From the NCBI GenBank assembly GCA_002869275.1, contig PKTF01000405.1:1-64000 (forward strand): a stretch of 64,000 nt of DNA. Direction: 5' to 3'. The DNA is from Ignavibacteria bacterium. Its GTDB lineage: Bacteria > Bacteroidota > Ignavibacteria > SZUA-365. The translations under genes and the position numbers were made by a program. Positions 1,853-13,449 of this stretch are shown one piece after another. Every line of letters begins with the position of its first letter. The first letter of the stretch is position 1. The notes beneath the pieces were generated by a model. The model was not told the DNA's origin, ran no database searches, and saw only the letters and a list, made by a program, of their open reading frames with translations.

Positions 1853-2421
1853 GCCTCCTCCCTCCTGTCACGAATCACACGTGCAGGTGTGCCCGCGACG
1901 ACGGCCCAGTCGGGAACGTCTTTCGTTACCGTGGCGTTGGCGGCGACAACGGCGTGGTCGCCTATGCGTACACCCTGAAGAATGACGCTGTTGGTTCCGA
2001 TCCAGACGTCCTCACCGATGTCGATCGGCTTCTGCACACCACCCTGTGTCTTTACCGGACTTGCACTGTCGCTGAACACGTGATTTCCATCGATGATGGT
2101 GACGAAGCCGCCGATAAGCGTGTTGCGTCCGATATGGACAGTGCCCGATACCGTGCAGTGCTGCGAGATGAACACCCCTTCATCGATATCGAGAGAATTT
2201 CCTTCATGGGCGATCAGCCATGAATCGTGCAGCACTTCCACGCCCTTGCCGATATTGAACCGGGCACCGTCGGCGATGCGAAGCTGCACGCGCGGTCCAA
2301 ACGTCGCCGAGACGCTGATGTGATGTCCGTCCCTGCGCAGATTGCGCAGCGCGAGGTACAGTTCCGCGCCCTGCATCTTTCGGAACAGCCATGCGGCGAT
2401 ATGTGCGATCAGCGCTTTCAT
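1849..2421 (-). CDS. Hexapeptide-repeat (left-handed beta-helix) O-acetyltransferase
   Basis: This 190-residue protein has repeated [IV]-G-x4 hexapeptides (for example IGKGVEV, IGRNTLIGG, IGEDVWIGTNSVILQGV, IGDHAVV) that form a left-handed beta helix, followed by the usual end cap AGTPARVIR. The DGNHVF segment (111-116) supplies the probable catalytic histidine (His114), as in maltose/galactoside O-acetyltransferases and WcaF-type colanic acid enzymes. It probably transfers acetyl from acetyl-CoA to a glycan hydroxyl and works as a trimer. It overlaps the flippase gene upstream and the BioF2-like gene downstream by four bases each. Confidence 0.85.
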   Translation of the reverse strand: MKALIAHIAAWLFRKMQGAELYLALRNLRRDGHHISVSATFGPRVQLRIADGARFNIGKGVEVLHDSWLIAHEGNSLDIDEGVFISQHCTVSGTVHIGRNTLIGGFVTIIDGNHVFSDSASPVKTQGGVQKPIDIGEDVWIGTNSVILQGVRIGDHAVVAANATVTKDVPDWAVVAGTPARVIRDRREEA

Positions 2422-3737
2422 TCAGAGACGGGTTCCGCCGTCGCATCGGGAACGGCGGAAGTGATTTCCTGACGGTGAAGATAAATATACAGCAGCGACG
2501 CGAATCCTGCCGCGAACCAGACAATGATGCTGCTGATTGCGGCGCCCATCGACCCCATGCTGCCGATGAAGAGGTAGTGCGACAGCAGTGTGACCGGTAA
2601 TTGTATGAGTGCGATGTAGGTGGCGACGCGTGCGCGGCCGATACTCAGAATAAGCATGGTCAGCGGATTACCGATGATGGTCCATGCATATCCGATGAAC
2701 AGGACGGAGAACATCGGAAGCGCGTCGACATACTTCTCGAAAAAATGCGGCACGGCGAGGTGCATGACGAAAAGATATGCGAGTCCGATTCCTGTGACCG
2801 GCAAAGTCACGATGAAGGTACGTTTGACGTAGTGGCGCATGTCGGCGACCGTACGTAACTCCATCGCCTTGGGAAAGAAGACAGTGGACACCGAGCCTAC
2901 CAGCACGATCAACGGTGTGCAGAGCCGTGCAGCCGCGATGTAGATGCCGGCCTCTGCCGGACTGTCTGCAAGCATCGGAGTGACCATGAACACGTCGAGA
3001 CGCATCAGAAACATCGTGGCGAACGACGTGACCATCATCCACTTTCCGAAGCTCCAGATTTCCCTTGTGATCTCTTTCCAATCATACGCTGCAGCACCGC
3101 GCAGCGCCCTGAATGCCAACAGCCCCACCGCCGCGACGATCACCGGAGCAGCAGCGTAGGCGGAATACACGAAGGTCAGAGAAAATGCGCCAACGAGAAT
3201 GCCGACGTAAATCGTTCCGGTTTTGATCGCCGCCTCTGTCACGCGTACGATGGTAAAGCGGATGAATTCCTGTCGCGCCTGAAGTACGGCGAGGATGAAT
3301 TCCATCATTCCCCCGCCGATAATCGCGATGGTCATGATCTTCAGCGGCATGACGAGTTCCGGCGTACGCAGCAGTGAAACCGCGAGAAACTCGGCACCGT
3401 AATACAGGACGATCGCGGTGATCAAAATCAGAAGGCTTTTGATCCGGATCGCCATCTGAAAATGCGCCTTCGCGCGATCGGGATCACTGTTCTTGTAGAG
3501 CGAATAAAAGCGAATGAAACTCTGCTGGATTCCGGAGTCCGTGAACTGATTGATGGTCGCGAGAACGGTGATGAAGAGGCCGTAGAGCTTGTAGTCCTCC
3601 GCGGTCAGCAGACTCATCATCCAGAGGGTTATGAGAAAGGTCAGGAGCTTGGCGGACACGTCTCCCATGAACACGACGCCCGCTTCTCTCGCGCCGAGCG
3701 GCAGAAATTCACGGATACCGTTGATGATGCGCTGCAT
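2418..3737 (-). CDS. Polysaccharide flippase (Wzx/MATE-like)
   Basis: About 439 residues with roughly 12-14 hydrophobic helices along the whole length, the layout of the polysaccharide transport/MATE-like flippase family that moves lipid-linked oligosaccharides across the inner membrane. The N-terminus (MQRIINGIREFLPLGAREAG) leads directly into the first helix. The ATG at 3737 was chosen because it starts one base after the stop of the upstream glycosyltransferase; an in-frame ATG at 3755 is an alternative. Neighbouring glycosyltransferases and acyltransferases support a role in exporting a surface glycan. Confidence 0.82.
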   Translation of the reverse strand: MQRIINGIREFLPLGAREAGVVFMGDVSAKLLTFLITLWMMSLLTAEDYKLYGLFITVLATINQFTDSGIQQSFIRFYSLYKNSDPDRAKAHFQMAIRIKSLLILITAIVLYYGAEFLAVSLLRTPELVMPLKIMTIAIIGGGMMEFILAVLQARQEFIRFTIVRVTEAAIKTGTIYVGILVGAFSLTFVYSAYAAAPVIVAAVGLLAFRALRGAAAYDWKEITREIWSFGKWMMVTSFATMFLMRLDVFMVTPMLADSPAEAGIYIAAARLCTPLIVLVGSVSTVFFPKAMELRTVADMRHYVKRTFIVTLPVTGIGLAYLFVMHLAVPHFFEKYVDALPMFSVLFIGYAWTIIGNPLTMLILSIGRARVATYIALIQLPVTLLSHYLFIGSMGSMGAAISSIIVWFAAGFASLLYIYLHRQEITSAVPDATAEPVSE

Positions 3738-3738
3738 G

Positions 3739-4935
3739 CTACACCGTTGCCGCATGCTGGTGCAGATGATCGAGCAAACGATCGCAACGGACTTTCCATG
3801 TATTGCTCGCCGCGAAATGCATTCTCTCCCTGCGCAGCGATGCACTGTCCTCCGTCACTGCGAGTTCGAGTTTGTTTCCAAATTCGCTCGCGGTCCTGGC
3901 GAGATAGACATGACCAGCATAGTGTTCGAGCTCTTCGGTCCAGCGCGCGACCACGGGAAGTCCGGCCGACGCGTACTCATACATTTTCAAGGGATTCACC
4001 ACACGTGTTATCGCATTGTGGCGAAACGGAATGATCGCGGCATCGAAACGCTGAAGCCAGTCCGGGAGGTTCTCGTGCTGTACGAATCCGTGCAGGGTCA
4101 CATTCGCATGGACCCGGCATCTGTCCGCAAAAGGATTTTCGACCGGACCAATGACGGAAAAGCGATAGGTGGGGAAACGTTTCAGCAGTCCCAGAAAAAG
4201 CTCTTCATCGAACCATTTTCCCGTTGTGGCCCCGATGTACCCGATGTGGGGAGACGGGTCGCCGTTTGCCGTTCTCGGGATGCGCTGAACTGCATCGATA
4301 AAATCGCCTCCAACGGCGTTGGGCAGGAACAGCGTCTTCGTGTCGGCAAATCGCTGCTCGACATCCTGCCGCATCTCAGCTGCGCTGTACGTGACGAGGT
4401 CCACCTCACGTTTCAAGAGTGTCTCCCCCGCCCGGAGGCGCTGCAACGTGCGGTCGAAGCGGCTCTGGACCTCGAGCGCATCGCAGATATCATAAATAAG
4501 GACCCGCGGTGAGACCAGCGTGCGGTCGATGAAATTCCCCCACCAGAGGGGAATATTGATGATCACGATCGCATCAGAAAAATCATGGCCGGCAAATTCT
4601 CGTCGGAACCAGCTGCGAAATATCGAACGGTCGGCCGGAGGTGTCAGGCTGTTTCGGAACCCTGTCGGCAGCGTCGGCGGAGTGTGAATGTGCAGGTTCG
4701 GCGGCACGGCGGCATACTTGAACCCGGTGTCCTGTCCGAGAGGAGAAAAGGTGCGGTGGACAAACGCCTGCATTTTACCCGCTACAGACGGTGCGATCTC
4801 GATGAAGTCGATCCGGTGGCCTCTATGCGCGAGTTCCGCAGCCATGGCCTGTTCGCGCTGCGGCAGGCTGTGGAAGGAAGTCAAACCAAAAATCAGGAAG
4901 CGATATGTCTCTGAGGTCTGCATGTGCTGGGTCAA
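3739..4935 (-). CDS. Glycosyltransferase, GT-B fold (TuaH-like)
   Basis: This 398-residue protein has a GT-B two-domain layout. The N-terminal half has a Rossmann-like start and a stretch around YDICDALEVQSRF that resembles TuaH-type glycosyltransferases. The C-terminal half starts at HIGYIGATTGKWFDEEL and contains the nucleotide-sugar site around VVNPLKMYEYASAGLPVV, where the Glu of MYEY corresponds to the usual E of the family motif. No membrane segment is present. It probably builds the glycan exported by the downstream flippase. An ATG at 4923 is a possible alternative start. Sugar and linkage are unknown. Confidence 0.8.
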   Translation of the reverse strand: MTQHMQTSETYRFLIFGLTSFHSLPQREQAMAAELAHRGHRIDFIEIAPSVAGKMQAFVHRTFSPLGQDTGFKYAAVPPNLHIHTPPTLPTGFRNSLTPPADRSIFRSWFRREFAGHDFSDAIVIINIPLWWGNFIDRTLVSPRVLIYDICDALEVQSRFDRTLQRLRAGETLLKREVDLVTYSAAEMRQDVEQRFADTKTLFLPNAVGGDFIDAVQRIPRTANGDPSPHIGYIGATTGKWFDEELFLGLLKRFPTYRFSVIGPVENPFADRCRVHANVTLHGFVQHENLPDWLQRFDAAIIPFRHNAITRVVNPLKMYEYASAGLPVVARWTEELEHYAGHVYLARTASEFGNKLELAVTEDSASLRRERMHFAASNTWKVRCDRLLDHLHQHAATV

Positions 4936-4957
4936 TATGCTCGGAACAGGTTGGAGG

Positions 4958-6025
4958 TTACGTGGAACTGTGTTTTCGCGGTGTTGAATACCACTGTATC
5001 AGTATCCTGGAAATATCATCCCAGGTATGTTCAGATACAAACGCACGTGCCCGTTCCGCCTTTTCCTGCAATGCTGATTGCAGGGCGCCCTTCAGGATTC
5101 CTTGCAGAACTTCCTCGGCCTCCTGCTCTGAACGCAATACTGTCGCGAGCGTATCCAGCTGTTCAATTGATGCGAAATACTGCTGCTTCATCGAGTTGAA
5201 GGCGGGAACGATGACAGGAATGCCAGTCTGAAAGGCTTCAAACAGGCTCAGGAAGCCCGTGGCGACGAGATATCGCGCATTCCGTAGCACAGGAAGGGTG
5301 TCTTCAATTTGTCCGTGCAGGAGCATTTCGAAGCCCTCATGTTCCAGTTCCTGCAATTCTGTACGGAGAGAGCCGCTTCCCGCCAGCTCCAGTCGCACCG
5401 GGATACGCGTCTGCATCGCAGCGTCCCGTAGAAGCTGCACCAGGGGTAACAGAAGGGTATCCTTCTCGAGTCTGCCGGTGTACACGAAGACCATCTTGTC
5501 GTTCTGCGGCATCGCGGGGAATTCACGGATTGGGGCTCCGAGGTACACCGCATCTATTGGATGTCGGTACAGTGCACGGAGGTAGGAGCCGACTCCGAAA
5601 CGTACGTGACAGAGCCATGCGGTGAGGCTCCGAAAGAACTGATGGTGGGCCTGCACGGGCCACCGTTCGAATCCGTGAAAGGTCACCGCGTAGCGGGGAC
5701 CACGGATCAGCGGACGAAGAGGCAGGAACCAGTGAACGAACACAGTGTAGTCATGGAAGTGCAGTACATCGGCACTGCGCAGAAGTGCACGGAATCCCCA
5801 CATGCGCCGCCAGTAAAACAGACGTGTGATCGGACGAACCACCGGCACCTGAAACCTATGGACGGTACAGGCGAGTTCATCATCCTGCCATGCACCAACC
5901 GGAGTCTCACTGATCACGCTGACCTCATGGCCGGCGCGTACCTGTGCTTCAGCAGTGCGCAGGACGCTCCACTCCACTCCGCCTGCGGAGGGAAGAAAAT
6001 GATTTGTAATGTGAACGATGCGCAT
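4958..6025 (-). CDS. Glycosyltransferase family 4 protein
   Basis: A 355-residue retaining GT4-type enzyme. The N-terminus HITNHFLPSAGGVEW is the family's glycine-rich start, where the GG loop contacts the nucleotide sugar. The C-terminal domain has FVYTGRLEKD followed by LFEAFQTGIPVIVP, the conserved E-x-F-x-x-G-x-P-V sugar-nucleotide motif. It starts two bases after the secreted PIG-L gene, so co-expression is likely. The protein has no signal peptide and should work at the cytoplasmic face of the membrane. Its donor sugar is not deducible. Confidence 0.85.
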   Translation of the reverse strand: MRIVHITNHFLPSAGGVEWSVLRTAEAQVRAGHEVSVISETPVGAWQDDELACTVHRFQVPVVRPITRLFYWRRMWGFRALLRSADVLHFHDYTVFVHWFLPLRPLIRGPRYAVTFHGFERWPVQAHHQFFRSLTAWLCHVRFGVGSYLRALYRHPIDAVYLGAPIREFPAMPQNDKMVFVYTGRLEKDTLLLPLVQLLRDAAMQTRIPVRLELAGSGSLRTELQELEHEGFEMLLHGQIEDTLPVLRNARYLVATGFLSLFEAFQTGIPVIVPAFNSMKQQYFASIEQLDTLATVLRSEQEAEEVLQGILKGALQSALQEKAERARAFVSEHTWDDISRILIQWYSTPRKHSST

Positions 6026-6027
6026 TG

Positions 6028-7185
6028 TCAGCGACGGTCGCCCAGGTTCACTTTCTGGAAAAACTCGTAGCGTGGAGGCTTCCCGGTGACGGGCGTGTAA
6101 CCGTAATCCTTGACGAACATGCCGTCCATGTATTCGTCATCAGGATTCCAGGGCTTGTCGTAGTCGTTGCCTTCCTTGTAGATGAACTCGATGCGTTTGA
6201 AGGCTTCGTGCTTCTTACGTCTCGCTGCACCGCCTGCCGCGTCGAGATCGAGAAAGTGCGTGATATTGTCGTCGATGTTGTATTCCGGAAAGCCCGTGTA
6301 GAGGGCAATACGACTGCCTGAGCGATCCTGCAGCACCGCATTCTTGACGAGCAGGTTCACTGTTTTGTGAAAGTAGCTGCCGTACTCACCGTTGCTTCCA
6401 TGTGTGAGGACCATGTCGGGTCGTTCACGCGCGAGCAGGTCCGCGATGCTTCGAGCCATCGCTTCACGCATGATTGTTCCCGGACCGTAACTCTTCTTGA
6501 AGTCCAGCCCAGGGTACTCTCCGATCTGTACCAGGGTTTCCCCGTCCAGCTCGTAGCGCACGGGAAGTACAGCGATGTCGACACCGAGCACGCTGCCGTA
6601 TCTTCGCGCGATGCCCGGCTTTGCCAGGCCCATCAGGTCCGTCGCGACGCGCACCGATCCGTCGGGCATGACGCTTGCGCAGTTGTATCCGCCGAGCGCA
6701 TCGTTTTCGTCGTCGTCAAAGCCGCGCGAACCGTCCGCGCCATTGGAGACCAGGTACACGCGTACCTTCTTCCCCATCGCTGCTGCGCGGGCAAGCAATC
6801 CTCCGGCGAGGAGTATCTCGTCATCTGGATGTGCGAAGATCGCCAGGATATACCGGGACGACTGCAATTCGTTCTCCATAGGTGTGAAGCGTGCTGAGAG
6901 TGCTTCCGGTGTGCGGAGGTATCCGGTATGATCATCACCATCGAAAACGCTGAGGGTGTAGTCGATTTTCGTTTTCTCTGTCGGTTCACCGTACCGGAAA
7001 TTCTTGTAATACACCACACGGTGATCGATTCCCGGCCACTCATCGAAATCCCATGTGCCGTGTTCGACGCCGGCGGGGATGTCATGACCGGGACGGAACA
7101 TGGACGGCGTCGCCGTATGCGGCACAGTCTGCGCGTAGATGTTGCAGGTGAAAATCAGAAGGAAAAAGACTGCAAGGCGTTTCAT
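6028..7185 (-). CDS. Secreted PIG-L (LmbE-like) deacetylase
   Basis: This 385-residue protein starts with a clear signal peptide (MKRLAVFFLLIFTCNIYAQ, cleaved after about residue 19), so the enzyme acts outside the cytosol. The zinc motif AHPDDE is at residues 118-123, followed by a large Rossmann-like deacetylase domain with SNGADGSRG and the later THGSNGEYGSYFHKTV segment, which supplies the third zinc histidine. The first ~110 residues precede the domain and are not recognised. Location in a glycan cluster suggests N-deacetylation of an exported polysaccharide or glycolipid. Twelve bases separate it from the SGNH hydrolase upstream. Confidence 0.85.
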   Translation of the reverse strand: MKRLAVFFLLIFTCNIYAQTVPHTATPSMFRPGHDIPAGVEHGTWDFDEWPGIDHRVVYYKNFRYGEPTEKTKIDYTLSVFDGDDHTGYLRTPEALSARFTPMENELQSSRYILAIFAHPDDEILLAGGLLARAAAMGKKVRVYLVSNGADGSRGFDDDENDALGGYNCASVMPDGSVRVATDLMGLAKPGIARRYGSVLGVDIAVLPVRYELDGETLVQIGEYPGLDFKKSYGPGTIMREAMARSIADLLARERPDMVLTHGSNGEYGSYFHKTVNLLVKNAVLQDRSGSRIALYTGFPEYNIDDNITHFLDLDAAGGAARRKKHEAFKRIEFIYKEGNDYDKPWNPDDEYMDGMFVKDYGYTPVTGKPPRYEFFQKVNLGDRR

Positions 7186-8216: not shown

Positions 8217-11200
8217 TCAGCGTGGCAGATCGATGGTGACGATCGGACTGTCCTGCTCTGTCGGTCCGCTCGCGAAATGCGGCTGCGGCTGCATCTGCTC
8301 GTGCAGCGCTTTGAGAAGTTTCGCTTCGTATTCGCGCAGTTTCGCCTCGAGAGCATCTTCCTTGATGCTGCGCATTGTCAGGGTCTCACGGTAGCGCTTA
8401 AGGAAGTAGGCGATCGTCTCAACGCGGATGCGGATACTGCCGCTGGGTTTGTTTTCGTCGATGTCCTTGAAGCTGAAATATGGTGTTCCCGAGCATTCCA
8501 CCACTTCCTGGACCACGGCGTAGATCGGTCCGTCATGGCCGCATTTGAAGCTGGACAATTCGAGCGCCACGAGATTTGGATGCCGTGCGACATACTTGGC
8601 CGCCCAGACCTTGCGGCTCGTGTTCTCACTGTAGGAGTTTTTCCAGACGTCGGATATTTCCATGGGATCCGAGATGCGTCCTTCCCGGATCTCGGCGCCG
8701 AAGAGGCGTTCGAGAGTCTCGGCATCGGTGGGCAGACTGTCTTGTGTGAACACCGGATAGCCGAGTTTCTGGAATTCAGCGAGAGTGCCGTGATTGATCC
8801 CGGGATCGTTGTGATAGGGGCGCGCGAGAAGGACGATCCCGAGTCTTCCCTCCTCCTCGATTTCGTGCAGCGTTTCCGCCGCACGGTTTCGAATGCTGTC
8901 GGTGAAGCTGCGCAGCGCGTCATACCCGGCCCGCATCGCTTCTTCATGCTCCTTGAGCGACAGCTTCAATACGCCGCGCAGCTCGAGGTACAGTTGACGC
9001 GAAGCGAGTTTCTCATCCCCGAGGTTCACGAAGGGATGAAGGTACTCGATGCCATGCGCATCGAATATGCTGCCTTCCTTGGTGTAGGCCGCCTCAATGG
9101 TTTCAGCAGTACCGACGATGGTCGGACATGCTTTTGCCGCCTGTGTATTGTGCAGGTCACTGGGCATGTCATCAACCATAGGAAAGAAAATCACATCCAG
9201 CGCTTTGGCGGCGTGTTTCCTGTACAGAAGATTATGCGTGTGCGCCAGACCGAGTTTGCTCGGGAAGCAGGGGTCGATGCTGCCGCGCTTGCTGCCTTCG
9301 CGAAAGAGTGAATCCGTTGTATGATCGGACCACACGATATGTTCAAAGGGAATGCCCAGGGTCTGCAGATAGGCAGTAAAGAACGGTGCATGCGCATACA
9401 TATTCAATGCGCGAGGAATACCGATCTGAAGATCCGCGCGTCGTTTCGCCACTCCACGAATGCTGATTCCGGTTTCACCGCGTTCTGCATTGGTCTCTGC
9501 GAACGTACGGAACACCTCTCGTCCGGAGATTTCCGCATAGTTGGGATATTGTTTGCGAATTCGTGCGAGGTCCCTGGCGATGTCGCGCATCGCATCGGCT
9601 TCCTCCACACAGCCCTTTTCGCAGGTGGCTATAATGAGCCGGCGTTTTGTATCGTCGGTGCTTTTTGCCCGGACTGCTGGAGTCTCGACGTCAATGAAGG
9701 TGCGCATGCAGGAATTCTTGCAGAAGCTGCAGCGGGTGGATTCATCCCTGCGAGACACAAATCGCAGCTGCACCGCGGCATCGAGTCCGATAAACGTGGT
9801 TTCTCTGCCGCTTGTATGCAGGCGTGCCGCTTCGACAGCCGTACCGATCGCTCCGGCCTCGCCTGTATGCTGATGGACGATGATACGCGGTCGCAGATCC
9901 CGGAATTTGCTTTCGATGAAATCCACCTGGGCCTTGACAGCGGCAAGATTCCGTTGCGTACCTCCTTGCAACACAAAGGTGCTGCCGAGCATTTCGAGGT
10001 TGCTGATCTGGGAGACGTAATGCCAGATATTCTTCGGCAGAACGCGGGCGAGTCCGGCCATGATCTCAGAAGCGTTCCAGCCCTGCCGCTGAAAATCGAC
10101 GATATCGGACTGCAGGAACACCGCGCAGCCGTAACCGAATTCGGGGATCTGCTCGGCCTTGAACGCGAGATCCGCATATTCTTCAACGCTGTATCCGAAT
10201 CCCTCGGCCGTGCTCTGCAGGAAGTAACCATTACCTGCCGAGCATTGCGTATTCAGCTTGAAATCGACGACTCTATCCTGGTGCAGCAGAATGAGTTTGA
10301 TATCCTGACCTCCAACGTCACATATCACATCTACGTGATCGTAAAAACGCTGAGCAGCCTGCGTGTGAGCAACCGTCTCGACGAGGGCTACGTCGGCACC
10401 GATGGCGTCCTTGAGAATGTCCTTGGCGTATCCCGTTGTCCCGACTCCCAGAATGTGCAGCGTCGCACCCTGACGCTCAACCTGATCACGGAGGTCGCTG
10501 ATGATCAGGCGGGTGTCTTCGATGGGATTGCCGGCGGAAAGTCGATACGCTTTGAACGCCACGTTCAATTCGCTGTCGATGAGCACACCCTTCGTGGAGG
10601 TAGATCCTCCGTCGATACCCAGGTAAGCGCTGAATGTAGATCCATGATGGAGTCGACACGGAATAAACTGCGGCACACTGTACTTGTTTTTGAAACGAGT
10701 AAGTTCCTCCTGTGATTGAACCAGTCCCTGCCCCGTCTTCGCTCGACGGATGGCATTTCTTCCGTGTGCGATATAATCGCGCAGGCCGTCTAGCCCCGTA
10801 AAACGTTCGGTAATGTCATTCCTGCTGGCATAAAGGATACAGCCGTGAGCAGCGAAATACTGCGCGTCATCAGGCACGTATATCAGATCAGCGGGATCAT
10901 CCGTTTCCGAGATGTCAACGCCGCGCTCCTTCCAGAGACGCGGGATATTTTCCTTCCAGCATTCGACCATTCCGCGGATGAAGGTGTTTGGTCCGCCCAG
11001 CAGCAGCACTTCGGGTCGCAATGTGTTGCCACGCGTGAGGACGGAAAGGTTCTGCTGAATAATGGATTCGAAGAGCGAGGCCATCAATTCCTCTGCCGGC
11101 ACTCCCTGCTTCTGCAGACTGTTGATGTCGGTTTCCGCAAACACACCGCATTTCCCGGCCACGGGATGCAGACGCATTCCGGAGTAGGAAAGGTGCGCAA

Positions 11201-11675
11201 GCTGCTCGGCGGGAATACGCAGCTTCGCATTGATCTTGTCGATGATCGCGCCGGTTCCCCCGGCACATTTGTCGTTCATCGACGTGAATTTCTTGCTGCG
11301 CCCGCTGACAGGATCGCGCTGGAATATGAGGATCTTTGCGTCCTGTCCGCCCAGCTCAATGGCGGAGCCGGCGCGAGGATGCCGTTCTTCGACGGCGAGG
11401 GCCACGGCATTGACTTCCTGCACGTATCGGGCTCCGATGATCGGCGCGATGGGTCGCGCACCGGAACCGGTGATCAGCACCTGCAGGCCGGTGGATTCGG
11501 CATCGAGATCGGAGAGAATTCGCGTCAGGAAATCCAGGACGGTTTCGGCCTGACGGGTTTCGTGGCGCCGGTAGTCCTTCCAGACGATGGAGCCGTCCGG
11601 CACTGAAATCACCACACCCTTGACGGTGGTGCTGCCGACATCGAGTCCTACGATATGTGTAATAGTCGAATTCAC
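8217..11675 (-). CDS. Double-ASKHA acyl-CoA dehydratase activase with DUF2229 domain
   Basis: This 1152-residue protein fuses two BadF/BadG/BcrA/BcrD (HgdC-like) ATPase domains, about 7-285 and 350-620, to a DUF2229/COG3580-like region (about 640-1100). Each ATPase has the phosphate loop (GLDVGSTTVKG; GIDGGSTSTKG) and both cysteines that bridge a [4Fe-4S] cluster across the dimer (Cys137 and Cys176; Cys478 and Cys517). The third region adds CSFCKNSC (649-656), Cys685, Cys690, Cys803, Cys850 and Cys1045, likely further iron-sulfur ligands. Such proteins use ATP to push an electron to low potential. The GTG at 11675 was chosen because it follows AGAAGAG and avoids overlap with the upstream gene; an ATG at 11720 exists. 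The electron acceptor is probably the partner protein at 11689-13449. Confidence 0.85.
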   Translation of the reverse strand: MNSTITHIVGLDVGSTTVKGVVISVPDGSIVWKDYRRHETRQAETVLDFLTRILSDLDAESTGLQVLITGSGARPIAPIIGARYVQEVNAVALAVEERHPRAGSAIELGGQDAKILIFQRDPVSGRSKKFTSMNDKCAGGTGAIIDKINAKLRIPAEQLAHLSYSGMRLHPVAGKCGVFAETDINSLQKQGVPAEELMASLFESIIQQNLSVLTRGNTLRPEVLLLGGPNTFIRGMVECWKENIPRLWKERGVDISETDDPADLIYVPDDAQYFAAHGCILYASRNDITERFTGLDGLRDYIAHGRNAIRRAKTGQGLVQSQEELTRFKNKYSVPQFIPCRLHHGSTFSAYLGIDGGSTSTKGVLIDSELNVAFKAYRLSAGNPIEDTRLIISDLRDQVERQGATLHILGVGTTGYAKDILKDAIGADVALVETVAHTQAAQRFYDHVDVICDVGGQDIKLILLHQDRVVDFKLNTQCSAGNGYFLQSTAEGFGYSVEEYADLAFKAEQIPEFGYGCAVFLQSDIVDFQRQGWNASEIMAGLARVLPKNIWHYVSQISNLEMLGSTFVLQGGTQRNLAAVKAQVDFIESKFRDLRPRIIVHQHTGEAGAIGTAVEAARLHTSGRETTFIGLDAAVQLRFVSRRDESTRCSFCKNSCMRTFIDVETPAVRAKSTDDTKRRLIIATCEKGCVEEADAMRDIARDLARIRKQYPNYAEISGREVFRTFAETNAERGETGISIRGVAKRRADLQIGIPRALNMYAHAPFFTAYLQTLGIPFEHIVWSDHTTDSLFREGSKRGSIDPCFPSKLGLAHTHNLLYRKHAAKALDVIFFPMVDDMPSDLHNTQAAKACPTIVGTAETIEAAYTKEGSIFDAHGIEYLHPFVNLGDEKLASRQLYLELRGVLKLSLKEHEEAMRAGYDALRSFTDSIRNRAAETLHEIEEEGRLGIVLLARPYHNDPGINHGTLAEFQKLGYPVFTQDSLPTDAETLERLFGAEIREGRISDPMEISDVWKNSYSENTSRKVWAAKYVARHPNLVALELSSFKCGHDGPIYAVVQEVVECSGTPYFSFKDIDENKPSGSIRIRVETIAYFLKRYRETLTMRSIKEDALEAKLREYEAKLLKALHEQMQPQPHFASGPTEQDSPIVTIDLPR

Positions 11676-11688
11676 AGCGTCTCTTCTG

Positions 11689-13449
11689 TCACCGCAGTTC
11701 CTGTGCCACCAGGCGTGCAAAACGCGCCGCAGTGCCTGTTCCCTGACGCGGAAGTCGCAGGAACGCCCGAGTCAGCTCAGGATTTCGTTCCATCTCCGAC
11801 TTGATCCGGGTTTCAGTGACACCACAAGCAGCAAGAGTATCTTCATATTCGGTCCTTGCACGTTCACGTGCATCATTGAGCGTCATCTGTACGCGACTCT
11901 GTGCGTTGACCTCTCCTTCACCGGAAGTTTCGATGGGCAGGTAAATGATATCGTCGTAATGCGCCACGACCGCGGTCTGTACCCCGTCAGACTGCGTACT
12001 GGGCAGGCAACCGAAGGGTTTGAGCGAAAGCACCATGTGGCTCAGTTTCTCGCGGGCATAGTAGATGTTCTTAGCCACTTCCAGATGCCCTTCTCCCCCT
12101 TCGATACGGGAATGGTAGTAGGGGTGTCCGATACGCTGCAGCATGTACTGGTCCTGCATCGGCTGCGGAATATTCATCATTCTTCTGCGCAGTCTGCGGT
12201 ATTCCCGGCTGTAGAGGCGTTCAGCAAGCGTGAGAATGGACCAGGTGCGCGCGTAGGTGATCTCTGAGCGAATCCGCTGCCTTATGCGTGGCCAACCTCG
12301 CAGTTCGTCCGGTACATCGAGCAGTCTGCGGTCTTTGCGTGACTGTTTTTCCTGGTGCAGCAGGTACATCAGCCAGGGAGCAATCGGCTCGATCATCACT
12401 TCCGCACCTTCTCGTTCGAGAAAATCAAACATGCGGAAATTTCCATCTCCCTCAGTGGTTTGTGCCCAGAATTCACCAGTGATTTTCACTATGGGTTTGA
12501 CGCGCGTGCGATCGACACGGACCTTCGAGAATATGTCTCGGCAGTCGTTCAGCAGCGCCCGCCTGTCTCGTCCGAACAGCTGAACGGCAAACTTCACGAC
12601 ATTTTCGATCACCCGCTGATTGTGTCTGATGATTGGCACGTTGCTCCAGGACCTGCCAAGGGCGAAGATCTCTTTTTCCTCTATCGCAGTCGCGACATAT
12701 TCCATGGCATGTTCGAGCGCGGCATTCGTGCTTCCGGGCTCGATCTCATAGGGACGAAGCTTGTATGCCATGTCGTTGAGCAGGTCTGCGATCATGAAGG
12801 CGTTGATGATACCGAGTGTGAAGTCGAGGTTCATCTCCAGCCCCGCATCCGCGTGGCTCTGGTCGAGTCCCCCCTCCTGCTGGAGGATCAGGACGCGGAA
12901 TCCTTCATACCCTGCATTGCGGAGTGCGAGCCGGTATTCGGCCTCGTACATCCCGAAGCGACAGGGACCGCAGGCACCCGCGGTAAAGAATACGTAGTTA
13001 TCGATAATGTGCTGGCGCGAGCGGCCCTCTTTCTCCAGCTTCTGTAAGTGATGGATGAGGTTTCCGACAGTGAAATACGTGGGATTGCAGAGACCGTTGT
13101 TGCTGAATTCCTTTCCGGTCTCATACGCTTTTACGTCGGGTGCCGGAAGGTATTCTGAGCGGTAGCCGAGTCGATGCAGGTTGGCCTGGATGAGGCGTTC
13201 GTGCTTCCATGTGAGTCCGCCGAACAGCACAGTCGTGCGTTCTCTCTGAGCACGTGTGAACGCATGCTCCGCCGGACGCTGCCAGTGTCCCTTGCGAGGA
13301 GTGAGACCGAACTCTTTCTCCAGGCGCAGGCGCTCGGCGGCGACAGCTTCTTCGAGGGTCATTGACCCGTCGCGCAATGCCGCGAGAATGCGGGGATCGA
13401 GTCCATCCCCCTCCTGTCCGGCACCGGCATGACGTACCGTATCGTGCAT
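11689..13449 (-). CDS. 2-hydroxyacyl-CoA dehydratase / double-cubane-like protein (COG3581 type)
   Basis: This 586-residue protein resembles the region that follows DUF2229 in large fused activases (COG3581). Likely metal ligands are Cys121 (NNGLCNP), Cys160 and Cys163 (TAGACGPCRFGMYE), and the Cys of KPFGCLPSTQSDG near residue 485. The ATG at 13449 is preceded by AGAAAGGA at about 11 bases; a longer frame to 13503 lacks a ribosome site. The gene lies 13 bases before the double-ASKHA gene, so both should be made together. In many anaerobes this unit is part of one polypeptide; here it is separate. Whether it dehydrates a 2-hydroxyacyl-CoA or reduces a small molecule, as double-cubane proteins do, cannot be decided. 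Confidence 0.75.
   Translation of the reverse strand: MHDTVRHAGAGQEGDGLDPRILAALRDGSMTLEEAVAAERLRLEKEFGLTPRKGHWQRPAEHAFTRAQRERTTVLFGGLTWKHERLIQANLHRLGYRSEYLPAPDVKAYETGKEFSNNGLCNPTYFTVGNLIHHLQKLEKEGRSRQHIIDNYVFFTAGACGPCRFGMYEAEYRLALRNAGYEGFRVLILQQEGGLDQSHADAGLEMNLDFTLGIINAFMIADLLNDMAYKLRPYEIEPGSTNAALEHAMEYVATAIEEKEIFALGRSWSNVPIIRHNQRVIENVVKFAVQLFGRDRRALLNDCRDIFSKVRVDRTRVKPIVKITGEFWAQTTEGDGNFRMFDFLEREGAEVMIEPIAPWLMYLLHQEKQSRKDRRLLDVPDELRGWPRIRQRIRSEITYARTWSILTLAERLYSREYRRLRRRMMNIPQPMQDQYMLQRIGHPYYHSRIEGGEGHLEVAKNIYYAREKLSHMVLSLKPFGCLPSTQSDGVQTAVVAHYDDIIYLPIETSGEGEVNAQSRVQMTLNDARERARTEYEDTLAACGVTETRIKSEMERNPELTRAFLRLPRQGTGTAARFARLVAQELR

Follow-up and report, generated by a model that had tools for sequence, protein, structure and literature searches.

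A PlsA/Ger-like gene pair with reversed gene order in Ignavibacteria, a probable ester-to-ether phospholipid reductase

Probable kinship of the gene pair with PlsA/PlsR and Ger

PlsA/PlsR of Clostridium perfringens is a plasmalogen synthase with two activation and two reduction/dehydration domains (PMC12838417, PMC9702350), and Ger, a homologue of PlsA, carries two BcrAD_BadFG domains and yields alkyl ethers when expressed in Escherichia coli (PMC13274423, PMC11150832). Both act on phospholipid, whose esters are reduced to vinyl or alkyl ethers (PMC12838417, PMC9702350, PMC13274423, PMC11150832). Here we describe a gene pair at positions 8217–13449 of a 64,000-nucleotide stretch from an Ignavibacteria bacterium (the window; contig PKTF01000405.1, assembly GCA_002869275.1), which encodes a large protein with two ASKHA ATPase (activase) domains and a DUF2229 reductase half (Red1), and a partner that constitutes a second reductase half (Red2). 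An earlier note on this DNA had left the substrate open; it is not wholly so, because the same architecture has been characterised as PlsA/PlsR and Ger, acting on phospholipid. The pair is probably an ATP-driven iron-sulfur (Fe-S) phospholipid ester-to-ether reductase of the PlsA/Ger family, with a Ger-like, saturated alkyl product favoured over a vinyl one. We infer substrate, product, clusters and electron path from what is seen directly in the domain set, the shared cysteines, the fold, the phylogenetic position and the conservation of the operon.

Pfam assigns two BcrAD_BadFG domains (E=4.9e-70 over the whole protein) and one DUF2229 domain (PF09989, E=1.3e-46) to the large protein; the ASKHA domains resemble HgdC and BcrA/BzdQ/MbdQ. 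The 586-residue partner has no match by sequence in Pfam, NCBIfam or PDB; it aligns with the C-terminal part of fused relatives, with C121, C163 and C481 in common, and the matching contexts of the Red2 cysteines (KPFGC(L/M)PS against QPF(G/A)CLPNH) confirm that split and fused Red2 are homologous. Coordinates and Pfam agree with the earlier description of two complete HgdC-type ATPases in a 1152-residue protein next to a separate partner, and the domain set and shared cysteines bear out an activase paired with an iron-sulfur reductase.

Cysteines were aligned across 63 split relatives (window pair included) and 17 relatives that are either fused or have the PlsA-like gene before the PlsR-like one (A-then-R). 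The core ligand set comprises 14 cysteines, C137, C176, C478, C517, C649, C652, C656, C685, C803, C850 and C1045 of the large protein and C121, C163 and C481 of the partner, all present in 63/63 split relatives. The seven belonging to the two activase domains and Red1 (C137, C176, C478, C517, C803, C850, C1045) are found in 17/17 fused or A-then-R relatives and the remaining seven in 15–16 of the 17. Among the latter, linker residues Cys649, 652, 656 and 685 occur in all split relatives and in 88–94% of the others; judging from this conservation they probably form an extra Fe-S or Zn site, located in the low-confidence part of the predicted model. Partner Cys160 is present in 98% of split versus 6% of fused or A-then-R relatives and is therefore nearly clade-specific. 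Thus, while all residues listed earlier exist (C137/C176, C478/C517, C121, C160, C163), only C121 and C163 of the three partner cysteines belong to the core, and C481 had been missed.

One [4Fe-4S] cluster, bound between the two halves of an internal pseudo-dimer, would suit the 2+2 activase cysteines and resembles the arrangement of HgdC. An [8Fe-9S] double cubane within one chain needs six cysteines; only three are conserved in each reductase half (3+3) across the 63 split and 17 other relatives, which gives no indication of a DCCP-like double cubane in a single chain. The 3+3 pattern would fit one cubane per half better, and a double cubane shared across the Red1 and Red2 halves is possible. 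The earlier suggestion of a double-cubane protein holds for the fold, which is of the DCCP/benzoyl-CoA reductase/HadBC type, and fails on the number of cysteines per chain.

This fold was seen in AlphaFold2 models of the partner (pLDDT 80) and of residues 628–1152 of the large protein (pLDDT 80), compared with PDB by Foldseek. The first twelve matches of Red2 all belong to the double-cubane/benzoyl-CoA reductase/HadBC family, led by DCCP 7yyl_A (E=4.3e-5, probability 1.00, TM 0.33/0.43) and including DCCP 6eno, MbdONPQ 9gai and HadBC 3o3m. Red1 matches HadBC 3o3n_B (probability 1.00), DCCP 7yzm_A (probability 0.96) and also 3o3m_B and 3o3o_A, with high probability and the best TM. Both halves are thus predicted to share the benzoyl-CoA reductase/2-hydroxyacyl-CoA dehydratase fold; a sequence profile search with the reductase halves recovered no members of the DCCP/benzoyl-CoA reductase/HadBC family.

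Sequence comparisons place the pair near PlsA. DUF2229 is found in 4/14 control genomes (Thermotoga maritima, Lactococcus lactis, Thermus and Deinobacterium), and the genera Thermotoga and Lactococcus have experimentally supported Ger and PlsA, respectively (PMC11150832, PMC11604127, PMC12838417). In tblastn searches of plasmid records the large protein is ~30% identical over 94–97% to proteins of Listeria, Fusobacterium, Acetoanaerobium, Haliovirga and Collinsella, which, where annotated, are called acyl-CoA dehydratase activase or 2-hydroxyacyl-CoA dehydratase. Two unrooted trees were built, one under LG+G4 with 44 rows and one under LG+C20 with 31 rows and the two longest branches removed. 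In both, a branch with 100% SH-aLRT separates the split clade from all other rows, and the clade adjoins PlsA-type proteins of Listeria, Fusobacterium and Clostridia, with the divergent fused Bacteroidota proteins standing apart. Identities are in keeping with the trees, the window pair being 27–29% identical to the named PlsA-type proteins and 21–22% identical to the fused Bacteroidota ones. Separately, a Paraclostridium relative (L186:2992-6840) is missing the linker and partner cysteines and probably has a different or inactive function.

Reversed gene order, distribution and hosts

Scanning genome contigs yielded 353 relatives of the partner gene, the best 80 of which were loaded as loci; 73 of these hold both genes, and in 73/73 the large gene follows the partner gene on the same strand. 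Across Ignavibacteria, Acidobacteriota, Zixibacteria, Latescibacterota and Marinimicrobia the pair is about 50–60% identical. Within the best 80, at 50–75% identity, the carriers are Ignavibacteria/Bacteroidetes, Acidobacteriota (many Bryobacterales, Solibacter), Zixibacteria, Latescibacterota and Marinimicrobia, together with a few bins labelled Actinobacteria or Dadabacteria. The protein is rare in the phylum at large: a close form occurs in 2/297 genomes, and 6 further genomes match weakly (E 1e-4 to 1e-11), mostly via divergent fused proteins. The single-chain form mentioned in the earlier note was indeed found, as fused relatives of 1413–1479 aa with the domain order ATPase-ATPase-DUF2229-COG3581; the split genes therefore stand in reverse order, PlsR-like and then PlsA-like. 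A Fusobacterium animalis record is also split, but in the A-then-R order. Splitting as such is not new, since C. perfringens and Fusobacterium also have two genes; what is unusual is the reversed order, and the chief novelty is that the reversed-order pairs form a clade of their own whose hosts are aerobically equipped.

Several loci carry further peculiarities. Two genomes of the window's family that have the main pair also contain a second, divergent split pair, ~40% identical (L158:6234-11269 and L159:5790-10935); the L159 copy, inspected residue by residue, has no Cys160. The record PABJ01000140.1 (L041) is titled Ectothiorhodospiraceae, probably wrongly, since its split pair and that of a genome from the window's order (G308) are identical. 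In three Marinimicrobia loci (L064:3085-6578, L115, L084) the genes directly upstream of the pair are those for a histidine kinase and a sigma-54 response regulator, with the domains checked in L064.

Part of the clade is linked to squalene genes. In 14–15 Ignavibacteria loci two squalene/phytoene synthases and an amine-oxidase-type desaturase (hpnCDE-like) precede the pair on the same strand; two genomes of the window's order have the hpnCDE-like genes divergent from it, with hpnC and hpnD joined in one open frame of 574–582 aa (L160:5916-7640, L161:2053-3801). One fused-type relative lies directly downstream of hpnCDE (L153), and one Bryobacterales locus has hpnC/hpnD beside the pair (L102). 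That the genes meet in several arrangements speaks for something beyond inherited order, and neighbours of this kind would fit membrane lipid metabolism. In the window's own genus and family, the pair and hpnCDE lie apart. Squalene/phytoene synthase genes are found in 96/100 genomes of the class, so that their co-occurrence with the pair says little, and squalene-hopene cyclase was not found in 99/100 genomes of the class (one marginal match). The loci with hpnCDE-like genes beside the pair or a fused relative include L044:4343-13423 and L163; a 146-aa gene of no assigned family (L044:4343-4783) heads the hpnCDE-reductase operon in Ignavibacteria.

A haem-copper oxidase (COX1) is encoded in 24/25 carrier genomes tested, the window's genome included. 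This stands out against the general oxygen sensitivity of the PlsA family, although Lactococcus cremoris PlsA works in air (PMC12838417). DUF2229 proteins were counted in 20 carrier genomes from outside the window's lineage: 15 of them contain just one, but another is present in some Bryobacterales and in both Marinimicrobia, so paralogues can coexist. Ger homologues have been reported in Marinisomatota and Bacteroidota metagenome-assembled genomes (MAGs) of the Black Sea (PMC11868695). Solibacter usitatus, grown at 1–21% O2, makes iso-C15 mono- and diethers and tetraethers; it has no ElbD, and PlsAR homologues have been proposed for its ethers (PMC10087280). In a MAG labelled Solibacter usitatus (L092) the split pair is the only DUF2229 protein. 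The tetraether synthase family NF045702 gave only weak radical-SAM background in the window's own genome, so co-occurrence with Tes is not supported.

We put forward, as a speculative proposal with the odds against it, that aerobically equipped bacteria (Acidobacteriota, Ignavibacteria, Marinimicrobia and others) have in the split reversed-order clade an ether-lipid reductase of distinct function. This enzyme might convert ester into ether in the making of soil branched tetraethers and, in part of its range, would work with the HpnCDE squalene pathway towards an unusual membrane. Branched tetraethers made by soil bacteria serve as a standard thermometer for past climates, and their makers and ether-forming enzyme are unsettled; a separate PlsA/Ger-like clade in Acidobacteriota and neighbours is a concrete gene-pair candidate for the ether step. 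The clade could also serve to study how a radical-type iron-sulfur reductase withstands air.

Proposed mechanism and competing explanations

The two ASKHA domains of the large subunit would form an intramolecular counterpart of the HgdC dimer in which 2+2 cysteines hold one [4Fe-4S] cluster. ATP hydrolysis would lower the potential of this cluster and fire single electrons into Red1 (DUF2229) and Red2 (COG3581), perhaps through the four-cysteine linker site. Red1 and Red2 would each bind one cluster through three cysteines, and the acyl ester could become an ether by one-electron reductions of the ketyl type together with protonation and the loss of water. Two activase domains (BB) accompany alkyl-ether-only producers (PMC13274423).

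The closest competitor keeps the substrate and changes the product, namely a strict PlsA/PlsR-type plasmalogen synthase making a vinyl ether (alk-1-enyl) and not an alkyl one. It is possible, if less than even in our estimate: the named proteins next to it in the trees are PlsA-type and come from organisms, Listeria and Clostridia among them, that make plasmalogens or are likely to, and Ger and PlsA are reported to be indistinguishable by sequence (PMC13274423, PMC11868695), but the double activase domain accompanies alkyl ethers in validated Ger proteins (PMC13274423) and the lipids of Solibacter are alkyl ethers (PMC10087280). The first of these objections is tempered by several plasmalogen-type proteins in the tree that likewise have both ATPase domains. 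Another substrate for a reductase of the same fold, be it a squalene-linked isoprenoid or other lipid or an unusual small molecule of the kind that double-cubane proteins reduce, appears unlikely. The hpnCDE-like genes beside the pair or a fused relative in several arrangements, the near absence of squalene-hopene cyclase from the class and the best match of the Red2 fold, to DCCP, speak for it; however, pair and hpnCDE lie apart in the window's genus and family, the synthases are near-universal in the class, and phospholipid ester reductases supply the closest named relatives and share the cysteine pattern.

Resemblance of the ASKHA domains to HgdC and BcrA/BzdQ/MbdQ would also suit an activase with a dehydratase-like partner in a 2-hydroxyacyl-CoA dehydratase or benzoyl-CoA reductase pathway. 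This is very improbable, as the whole genome has no HGD-D (PF06050) dehydratase, no CoA-pathway genes were found near the pair, and the large protein is far from reaching the NCBIfam equivalog cut-offs for benzoyl-CoA reductase subunits; on the absent HGD-D and these cut-offs the dehydratase and benzoyl-CoA reductase readings were rejected. That the pair is a broken or artefactual split of a single gene, as the existence of single-chain relatives might suggest, can be practically dismissed. The genes lie 13 nucleotides apart in different frames and so are not one frameshifted gene; besides, the order is reversed relative to the fused chain, and the same two-gene order recurs in the 73 loci, across several phyla. 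A frameshifted single gene was ruled out on these grounds.

Some points count against the phospholipid ester-to-ether reductase that we favour. Identity to PlsA-type proteins is only 27–30%, so the substrate could have shifted, and the trees cover named PlsA-type proteins, with no published Ger or C. perfringens PlsA/PlsR sequence among the rows. Matches to PDB entries reach only modest TM-scores (0.3–0.45), which places kinship at the fold level only, and GFAT-1 entries, outside the family, rank among the Red1 matches with low TM-scores. An oxygen-sensitive family in hosts of which 24/25 carry the oxidase would need low-O2 expression or a tolerant variant, and the literature yielded no measurement of such ether lipids in Ignavibacteria.

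The locus and its comparison with described systems

Features of the gene pair in the window
Feature	Positions	Strand	Basis or content
PlsA/Ger-like large subunit, 1152 aa, GTG start	8217..11675	-	Act1 (ASKHA)-Act2 (ASKHA)-Cys4 linker-Red1 (DUF2229)
Act1, first BadF/HgdC-type ATPase domain (Cys137, Cys176)	10992..11651	-	PF01869 match; both Cys invariant
Act2, second BadF/HgdC-type ATPase domain (Cys478, Cys517)	9828..10622	-	PF01869 E=2.8e-51; both Cys invariant
Four-cysteine linker CxxCxxxC...C (Cys649, 652, 656, 685)	9621..9731	-	Conservation across relatives
Red1: DUF2229 and C-terminal part, HGD-D-like fold, Cys803, 850, 1045	8217..9428	-	PF09989 match; model; Foldseek
PlsR-like partner (COG3581 type), Red2, 586 aa, ATG start	11689..13449	-	Homologues, alignment, model, Foldseek

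The neighbours of the pair encode a GDSL lipase, a PIG-L deacetylase, glycosyltransferases, a flippase-like protein, NfeD and Band-7 proteins, an SNase nuclease, BrkB and PurL, a set that names no substrate. As had been noted earlier, no dehydratase, CoA ligase or CoA-transferase is among them. Within this set the flippase-like protein, two glycosyltransferases and the PIG-L deacetylase are consecutive (window 2418–7185) and resemble a surface glycan cluster.

Like PlsA/PlsR, which is a two-gene operon in C. perfringens and a fused PlsA in Enterococcus, Lactococcus and Listeria, the window pair consists of Act1-Act2-Red1 plus Red2, with the same cysteines, the benzoyl-CoA reductase/2-hydroxyacyl-CoA dehydratase fold, near-full-length identity to named PlsA-type proteins and a two-gene form that is already known. 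Unlike it, the pair has the Red2 gene first, a Red2 of 586 aa versus about 400 aa and the extra Cys160, and it belongs to a clade of its own in aerobically equipped hosts. With Ger of T. maritima and Desulfatibacillum alkenivorans, compared by description, it shares the two BcrAD_BadFG domains of a PlsA homologue and, probably, the conversion of ester to alkyl ether, whereas these Ger proteins are single genes. Finally, the DCCP/DCCP-R, BcrABCD/BzdNOPQ/MbdONPQ and HgdAB/HadBC plus HgdC systems likewise combine an ASKHA activase with this reductase fold (Foldseek probability 0.9–1.0, best matches); the window reductase halves differ from them in having no detectable sequence similarity and no CoA genes, and the pair stands out by its three conserved cysteines per half and by the fusion of the ATPases with Red1.

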